The notes under the pieces: generated by a model
Told to the model about the DNA's origin: nothing
The model's database searches: none
Seen by the model: only the letters and a program-made list of their open reading frames with translations
In this document: positions 23,934 through 26,261 of the stretch, piece by piece
How the letters are laid out: every line of letters starts with the position of its first letter
How positions within the stretch are numbered: the stretch's first letter is position 1
NCBI GenBank assembly: GCA_030830625.1
Contig: JAURMQ010000115.1
Coordinates: forward strand, 1-56,674
Source: Flavobacteriaceae bacterium
GTDB taxonomy: Bacteria > Bacteroidota > Bacteroidia > Flavobacteriales > Flavobacteriaceae
Direction: 5' to 3'
DNA length: 56,674 bases
Made by a program: the position numbers and the translations under genes

Positions 23934-23941
23934 TATATTTG
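23934..23941 (+). promoter_or_regulatory. Candidate -7 element upstream of the HU gene
   Basis: TATATTTG matches the TAnnTTTG consensus, 50 nt before the ATG. Confidence 0.5.
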
Positions 23942-23990: not shown

Positions 23991-24281
23991 ATGACAAAAG
24001 CTGATATTGTTAACAATATATCTGATCAGCTAGGTATTGATAAAACTGATGTTCAAGCCACAGTTGAAAAATTCATGAGTGAGATTAAGAACTCCTTAGA
24101 GAGTGGAGAAAACGTTTACTTAAGAGGATTCGGAAGTTTTATCATAAAAACAAGAGCGGAAAAAACGGGAAGAAATATTTCTAAGAATACTGCCGTTAAA
24201 ATTCCTGCTCATAATATCCCAGCCTTCAAACCCGCTAAAATTTTTGTAAACGGAGTTAAATCGAAGGTAGAAGTTGCTTAA
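23991..24281 (+). CDS. HU/IHF family DNA-binding protein
   Basis: 96 aa; MTKADIVNNISDQLGIDKTDV...VYLRGFGSFIIKTRAEKTGRNISKNTAVKIPAHNIPAFKPAK. Confidence 0.95.
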   Translation: MTKADIVNNISDQLGIDKTDVQATVEKFMSEIKNSLESGENVYLRGFGSFIIKTRAEKTGRNISKNTAVKIPAHNIPAFKPAKIFVNGVKSKVEVA

Positions 24282-24316: not shown

Positions 24317-24406
24317 ATGCCAAGTGGTAAAAAAAGAAAACGGCATAAGGTCGCCACGCACAAAAGAAAAAAGCGTAGAAGAGCCAACCGTCACAAGAAA
24401 AAATAG
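24317..24406 (+). CDS. 29-aa Lys/Arg-rich protein MPSGKKRKRHKVATHKRKKRRRANRHKKK, likely RNA-binding or ribosomal
   Basis: ATG-to-TAG ORF translated by hand; absent from the supplied ORF track because it is below 60 aa; same strand between HU and rng. Confidence 0.85.
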   Translation: MPSGKKRKRHKVATHKRKKRRRANRHKKK

Positions 24407-24453
24407 TGTTTGGAAATACACTTAAAAACATTCTCCAAAGTTCATTGATATTT

Positions 24454-24529
24454 GATACTGCTCCGTCAGTATCTTCAGGAAAATCCTGAATATTTATTGT
24501 TTAACAACGACATGCGTAAAAGCTGTCGT
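24454..24529 (+). promoter_or_regulatory. Structured leader of rng: three consecutive hairpins
   Basis: GATACTG-ctccgt-CAGTATC (24454-24473); TTCAGGA-aaa-TCCTGAA (24474-24490); ACGACA(t)GC-gtaaaa-GCTGTCGT (24507-24529); start codon GTG at 24547. Confidence 0.6.
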
Positions 24530-24546
24530 ATCTAAAATTCATCAGA

Positions 24547-26106
24547 GTGAATAAAGAACTGATTATACGATCGAATTCCTCTGCTGTTGATTTTGCACTG
24601 CTCAAGGATGGAAAATTAATTGAGCTCAATAAAGAAGTAGACAACAACAAGTTTTCTGTAGGTGACATTTATGTTGCCAAAATCAGAAAACCTGTATCGG
24701 GTCTGAATGCCGCTTTTGTTGGCGTAGGTCATGAAAAAGATGGTTTTTTACATTATCATGATTTAGGACCAAACCTTCCTACTTTATTAAAATTTTTTAA
24801 ACAGGTAAGCTCAGGTAAAACCAAAGATTATTCATTAAAGAATTTTCGGTTCGAAAATGAAATCCCCAAAGACGGATCGATACAAGATTATCTAAAAGCC
24901 CAACAACAGATACTTGTCCAGATTGTCAAAGAACCCATTTCTACTAAGGGACCCAGAGTTAGCTCTGAGTTGTCTTTAGCGGGAAGATTCATGGTACTCA
25001 TTCCCTTTTCTGACCGTATTTCTATTTCACAGAAAATCGAAAGTAATTCGGAAAAAAATCGGTTAAAAAAACTGGTAAAAAGCATAAGACCCAAAGGTTT
25101 TGGCGTTATCATAAGAACAGTAGCCAAAGACCAAAAAGTCAAAGAGCTGGACGCCGATTTACAACAATTACTCAGTCGTTGGAAAAACTTGTGTGAGAAA
25201 TTTGTCAAGGTAGATCAATATCCTACCAACATTCTCAGTGAGATCAATCGATCTTCTTCCATTTTAAGAGATATTTTCGATAACGATTTTACTGGCATTC
25301 ATGTGGATGATCCCGAAATGCTAGTCGAGATTAAAGATTACTTAGAAACCATCGCCCCAGACAAAGTATCTATCGTCAAGTATTTCAATAATAAAACCGC
25401 ACCCATTTTCGATCATTTTGGAGTCGAAAGACAAATCAAAACCGCATTTGGCACAACCGTTTCCATGCAAAAAGGAGCGTATTTGGTCATCGAACACACC
25501 GAAGCCCTACATGTGATAGATGTCAACAGCGGAAATCGATCCAACAAGGCCAAGTCTCAAGAACAAACTGCCTTAGAGGTCAACTTGATTGCCGCCAGCG
25601 AAATTGCCCGTCAATTGAGGTTAAGAGACATGGGAGGTATTATTGTAGTGGATTTCATCGATCTCAATTCCAACGAAAATCGAAAAAAATTATTTGAACA
25701 TCTCCGTAAAGAGATGGAAAGTGACAGAACCAAACACAAAATTCTGCCACCTTCTCGATTTGGACTAATCCAAATCACACGTCAACGGGTTCGCCCCGAG
25801 ATGAATATTAAAACCCATGAACCCAATCCCAACAAAAATGGCGAGGTTGAGGCACCCATTGTTTTAATAGACAAAATCAACGCAGAGCTTGACAAAATTG
25901 TCGAGCAAAGGCAAAACAAAAAGAAAAAGTTGCATTTGCACCTTCATCCTTTTATTGCTGCCTATTTAACCAGCGGTTTCCCCTCCATCCGGATGAGCTG
26001 GTATTTTAAACACAAAAAGTGGGTGCAAATTGTACCCCGTGATGCTTACCTGTATTTGGAGTTTCGTTTTTTGGATAAAAACAGAAAATTACTCCGTACT
26101 AAATAA
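24547..26106 (+). CDS. rng: Ribonuclease G/E family endoribonuclease
   Basis: 519 aa; S1-like VGDIYVAKIRKPVSGLNAAFVGVGHEKDGFLHYHDLGP; HVIDVNSGNRS; DMGGIIVVDFIDL; LIQITRQRVRPE. Confidence 0.93.
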   Translation: MNKELIIRSNSSAVDFALLKDGKLIELNKEVDNNKFSVGDIYVAKIRKPVSGLNAAFVGVGHEKDGFLHYHDLGPNLPTLLKFFKQVSSGKTKDYSLKNFRFENEIPKDGSIQDYLKAQQQILVQIVKEPISTKGPRVSSELSLAGRFMVLIPFSDRISISQKIESNSEKNRLKKLVKSIRPKGFGVIIRTVAKDQKVKELDADLQQLLSRWKNLCEKFVKVDQYPTNILSEINRSSSILRDIFDNDFTGIHVDDPEMLVEIKDYLETIAPDKVSIVKYFNNKTAPIFDHFGVERQIKTAFGTTVSMQKGAYLVIEHTEALHVIDVNSGNRSNKAKSQEQTALEVNLIAASEIARQLRLRDMGGIIVVDFIDLNSNENRKKLFEHLRKEMESDRTKHKILPPSRFGLIQITRQRVRPEMNIKTHEPNPNKNGEVEAPIVLIDKINAELDKIVEQRQNKKKKLHLHLHPFIAAYLTSGFPSIRMSWYFKHKKWVQIVPRDAYLYLEFRFLDKNRKLLRTK

Positions 26107-26108
26107 TT

Positions 26109-26140
26109 AAAAAACCGCCTTGGTTTCAGGGCGGTTTTTT
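26109..26140 (+). terminator. Rho-independent terminator after rng
   Basis: AAAAAACCGCC...GGCGGTTTTTT, 11-bp stem plus T tract. Confidence 0.9.
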
Positions 26141-26261
26141 TCTTGTACTGCACCTCCTTTGGTGAGGTACCCTCCTTATGGAATCGGGCTATTGAATAAG
26201 CGTATAGATTTTTATCAAGAAAGCGCATCGCTTAATCCTTTAAAACTTATTAATTTTGGTT

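Follow-up and report, generated by a model that had tools for sequence, protein, structure and literature searches.

A 29-codon gene between HU and rng in Flavobacteriaceae as ribosomal protein bS22, and a boxA-like element in the rng leader

The short open reading frame that separates the genes for an HU-family DNA-binding protein and an RNase G/E-family ribonuclease in a 56,674-nucleotide stretch of Flavobacteriaceae DNA (the window) is a real coding sequence rather than a chance frame, and it almost certainly specifies the flavobacterial ribosomal protein bS22, which sits in the h2/h27/h44/h45 pocket of the 30S subunit. The gene (24317..24406, + strand) runs from ATG to TAG and encodes a small basic 30S protein of 29 aa, MPSGKKRKRHKVATHKRKKRRRANRHKKK; it is conserved, syntenic and near-identical to a chain in a solved structure, and is assigned on the basis of phmmer matches in the PDB, synteny and an excess of synonymous differences. 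The peptide belongs to an already known family, bS22 having been seen previously in a Flavobacterium ribosome. The frame and the peptide of the first-pass annotation, with HU upstream and RNase G/E downstream, were exactly reproduced, and its count of 18 Lys or Arg residues among the 29 is revised to 17/29. The source genome is a draft assembly of 153 contigs that is 86% complete.

Searched against the PDB with phmmer, the peptide is identical at 28/29 positions over residues 1-29 to chain 5 of 7JIL (E 4.2e-11), which we take to be the F. johnsoniae 70S ribosome, and the comparison with F. johnsoniae ribosome chains that had been recommended thus gave a clear match. The two proteins are of the same length class and from the same class of bacteria; they differ in that Arg21 replaces Ala21 and in one extra C-terminal residue of the F. 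johnsoniae protein, whose chain sequence is found in four other PDB entries as well. PDB matches of the peptide are limited to this chain, chain 10 of 9I5V (E 3e-8; also 9I5X), which is named "AURKAIP1/COX24 domain-containing protein", and the Borrelia bS22 in chain V of 8FMW (E 2e-6). A 10-row family profile, which contains relatives of those three chains and includes two rows typed from PDB output, recovers 7JIL, 9I5V and 8FMW at 9e-16 to 2e-13 and nothing else up to E=10. The placement of bS22 comes from two published accounts: one notes its presence in F. johnsoniae 70S ribosomes and describes the same site in C. acnes (PMC10085706), and in the other the Borrelia protein, which resembles F. 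johnsoniae bS22, occupies the h2/h27/h44/h45 pocket, makes contact with H68, and is likened to mS38 and eL41 (PMC10618245). The F. johnsoniae protein is assigned to this pocket too, which is filled by mS38 and eL41 in other ribosomes. The near-identical F. johnsoniae chain taken together with these two papers identifies the ORF as bS22, so that the original guess of a ribosome-associated, bS22/mS38-like basic peptide was right. Its place in the ribosome is that of the published structures, and by analogy it probably has the same role in the source organism.

The codon pattern of the ORF is that of a protein under strong purifying selection. Relatives were gathered by an HU scan of genome contigs that yielded 80 loci, mostly labelled Flavobacteriaceae, or 81 with the window. 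Among these 81 loci (75 distinct DNA sequences) codon differences from the window comprise 984 synonymous and 17 nonsynonymous changes, differences at codon positions 1, 2 and 3 number 257, 12 and 992, and the gene product exists in five protein versions. This synonymous excess stands against an expectation of about four-fifths nonsynonymous (201/252 of random single-base changes in the ORF).

The gene arrangement is equally well kept. HU (23991..24281, + strand, with relatives of up to 93% identity) is preceded by a divergent mutY, and rng (24547..26106, + strand) begins with a GTG start; both frames are taken from the ORF list, rng being supported by synteny also, and their names come from the earlier reading and fit the sequences. 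The proposed check of HU-x-rng synteny came out in favor of the gene, since the bS22 ORF lies 26-90 bases past the HU match in 80/80 fetched loci and rng is next in every locus long enough, L077 ending before rng. The gene is single copy in its own genome, and a bS22 match is present in 378/393 sampled Bacteroidota genomes. The negative genomes cluster in one family, f36, where near-complete genomes gave no match (G147, G195, G199, G310, G324, G336 and G369), and in several members of one genus, g91 (G227, G275, G287, G339 and G390). A profile search of twelve bS22-negative genomes gave no convincing match, which reflects either real loss or strong divergence. Lack of conservation of the peptide and a non-coding codon pattern, which had been named in advance as grounds for rejecting the gene, were both examined, and neither occurred, given the 80/80 loci, the 984 synonymous to 17 nonsynonymous differences and the 378 positive genomes.

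The constant neighbors of the gene in Flavobacteriaceae, HU and rng, are what would recommend a different reading of the coding ORF, as a nucleoid- or RNase-associated basic peptide that partners HU or RNase G/E and is not ribosomal. In more distant Bacteroidota families (L140-L149), however, the peptide is kept with no rng match found nearby and with HU absent or further off, and retention of the peptide while its neighborhood loosens argues for a ribosomal function and not for partnership with the neighbors. A near-identical chain has moreover been built in the F. johnsoniae ribosome, and such cryo-EM chains already largely refute partnership with HU or RNase G/E, which is left very improbable. 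Scarcely credible is the identification of the ORF as bL38, a lineage-specific 50S protein, since the name "50S ribosomal protein L38" that the same sequence carries in the PDB is opposed by the description of bL38 as a separate 50S protein with beta-strands, near H95/H97 with uL6, uL14 and bL19, while the helical 30S chain is bS22 (PMC10618245). The conflict in PDB naming, in which one chain sequence (that of 7JIL chain 5) goes under two names, "30S ribosomal protein S22" and "50S ribosomal protein L38", is resolved by the papers in favor of bS22. bL38, also named in the first-pass annotation, belongs to the 50S subunit and is distinct from this peptide.

Borrelia burgdorferi bS22 (bb0822) matches at full length over 28 residues and has its pocket in a published structure, but shows ~71% identity, has a GUG start according to the paper and belongs to a different phylum. 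The actinobacterial bS22 proteins (M. smegmatis, C. acnes) and mitochondrial mS38 share, according to the papers, the basic helix and the same 30S pocket, and C. acnes and F. johnsoniae bS22 are 37% identical (PMC10085706). Unlike the Borrelia protein, the actinobacterial proteins and mS38 (COX24_C, PF08213) give no significant sequence or profile match to the peptide described here. The peptide had no matches in Pfam or NCBIfam, and PF08213 matched neither the protein nor anything in its own genome at E<=10, so that the suggested HMM comparison failed to connect the peptide with COX24_C. Comparison with actinobacterial bS22 by hhalign gave a probability of 4% over 2 columns, both alignments being very shallow (10 and 2 rows). 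Since neither PF08213 nor hhalign gives a signal, a deep relationship of the peptide to the actinobacterial and mitochondrial proteins is based on published structures and not on sequence.

On the basis of the published structures, the short and almost wholly positive bS22 helix would insert after translation into the h2/h27/h44/h45 pocket of the 30S subunit and, on subunit joining, would touch 23S H68 (given as H67 for C. acnes). Pocket insertion together with the H68 contact leads to a proposed role for bS22 as an RNA-charge-neutralizing staple and an intersubunit bridge near the decoding region.

The HU, bS22 and rng genes appear to be transcribed together. The Bacteroidota promoter -7 element is TAnnTTTG, and a putative example, TATATTTG, is located 57 nt before HU (23934..23941, + strand). 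In 81/81 loci a TAnnTTTG word is present in the 150 nt that precede HU, vs ~10% in shuffles; it occurs in only 1/81 loci between HU and bS22 and in 8/81 within the first 120 nt after bS22. Presence in every locus before HU and rarity thereafter suggests that HU-bS22-rng is one transcription unit, of which these are the first, second and third genes, read from the promoter-like site before HU. At the bS22 stop codon 62/81 loci have a terminator-like hairpin with a U-run; the window scores negative, its sequence containing a short hairpin (AGTGT...ACACT, 24405..24422, + strand) that overlaps the stop codon and is not followed by a U-run, and the window's genus likewise keeps the hairpin and is missing the U-run. 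In the first 30 nt past the bS22 stop of L005-L081 the terminator-like stem often includes the stop codon itself (TAGTT..AACTACTTTTT), and changes in this stem keep the pairing (TAGTC..GACTA, TAGTG..CACTA). Just past rng lies a terminator-like hairpin with a U-run (26110-26145, AAAAACCGCC..GGCGGTTTTTTT), which probably marks where the HU-bS22-rng unit stops.

The region between bS22 and rng contains a boxA-like element, GTTCATTGATATT (24440..24452, + strand), a motif of the rRNA operons of the family. The consensus GTTC[ACT]TTGANA, chosen after the leaders had been viewed, is present within 120 nt past the bS22 stop in 78/81 loci (96%) vs ~0.1% in mononucleotide shuffles; it replaced an earlier position-weight score for boxA, built from just 6 rRNA copies, that was too strict. 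The 16S leaders and 16S-23S spacers of other family members contain GTTCATTGACATATTG or GTTCATTGATATATTG where boxA is expected, and the leader sequence GTTCATTGAnAT of the window matches these elements; a 16S sequence was not found in the window's own genome. The latter genome has only two strict matches to the motif, one in the rng leader and one inside an ORF. In a survey of five genomes that left some reverse-strand loci unclassified, nearly all classifiable strict matches beyond the rRNA operons and bS22-rng fall inside long frames; a relative, L165, has one strict match outside any long frame. Within the window's genus, bS22 followed by the strict pattern was found in 19/22 genomes with no control matches, and the assemblies of the three motif-negative genomes are <=82% complete. 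After bS22 the motif was not found in the five readable relatives of family f2 or in the readable other families, except L140. By sequence and position, the motif is thus a candidate boxA.

Another reading is that the motif after bS22 is a promoter -33 element or some other conserved leader signal. It is suggested by the TTTG or TTG that the motif contains, as do Bacteroidota -33 elements, and by the lack of an exact match to the gammaproteobacterial boxA consensus GYTCTTTAANA. However, the -7 word that should accompany a promoter follows bS22 in few loci, as given above, the motif is the one that the family itself has in its 16S leader and 16S-23S spacer, and its near absence from mononucleotide shuffles is set against its presence in almost every locus; a -33 element or other signal is accordingly judged unlikely, though it keeps some weight. 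For a boxA outside rRNA operons there is a known precedent in the suhB leader of Enterobacteriaceae, an rRNA-type boxA ahead of a protein-coding gene (PMC5725501); the present case differs in concerning rng and Bacteroidota, with the boxA-like element ~105 nt before the start codon and three hairpins between. The literature on boxA and antitermination in Bacteroidetes and on RNase G yielded no report of an rng-leader element, and a boxA-bearing rng leader appears to be undescribed.

The three hairpins, identified from the MFE fold and from covariation, follow the candidate boxA on the + strand as stem-loop 1 (24454..24473, GATACTG/CAGTATC), stem-loop 2 (24474..24490, TTCAGGA/TCCTGAA) and stem-loop 3 (24507..24529, ACGACA/TGTCGT). 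The MFE fold of the window leader (24404-24560) has a z of -4.1 vs shuffles, and per-sequence folding of 62 leaders gives a median z of ~-4 for the segment with stem-loops 1 and 2 and of -3.7 for stem-loop 3. Hairpin lengths vary across all 44 leaders, for which RNAalifold is unsuited, and covariation was therefore counted on the named structure in 21 related sequences. There 82.5% of the cells are paired, double-change cells number 71 vs 28 in shuffles, and the covariation score is 0.47 vs 0.25 in shuffles and <=0.25 when the structure is slid, values that are favored by the choice of the 21 leaders for compactness and by the drawing of the structure from one of them. A conserved TTGTTTAA stretch is seen ahead of the third hairpin. 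A leader covariance model scores the window at 68 bits and detects the leader in 4/10 sampled Flavobacteriaceae genomes, own genome included, a rate at which the model cannot define the leader's range; a weak match in another family, L198, was set aside, having no bS22 or rng start nearby. An Rfam scan of the operon found no family at cut-off, with sub-threshold matches only at the rng 3' end. The E. coli rne 5' UTR has autoregulatory hairpins, and the rng leader resembles it in being structured and in preceding a gene of the RNase E/G family, but differs in having no Rfam match, in the candidate boxA that precedes the hairpins, and in that autoregulation here is putative.

We propose, from sequence features, that a Nus-factor/boxA system together with the leader may control RNase G/E expression in Flavobacteriaceae. 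An abundant HU-bS22 message would end mostly near the bS22 stop codon, transcripts that read through would recruit NusB/S10 at boxA, and the three-hairpin leader would set RNase G/E output. This scheme is offered tentatively, as one that has a little less than an even chance of being correct; NusB/S10 binding, antitermination and autoregulation at the rng leader are predicted components of it. If boxA and the Nus factors do act on the rng leader, output of an rRNA-processing RNase would be coupled to the Nus machinery by which rRNA synthesis is driven.

The ORF shows how readily gene calling with too high a length minimum can overlook a ribosomal protein that lies near the decoding region. bS22 is ordinary in its phylum, being found in nearly all sampled Bacteroidota, and in Flavobacteriaceae its position between HU and rng eases annotation; what may be new is the rng leader. 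If confirmed, the leader would give Nus antitermination a non-rRNA target beyond Proteobacteria and would join rRNA transcription, a ribosomal protein and an rRNA-processing RNase into a single circuit.
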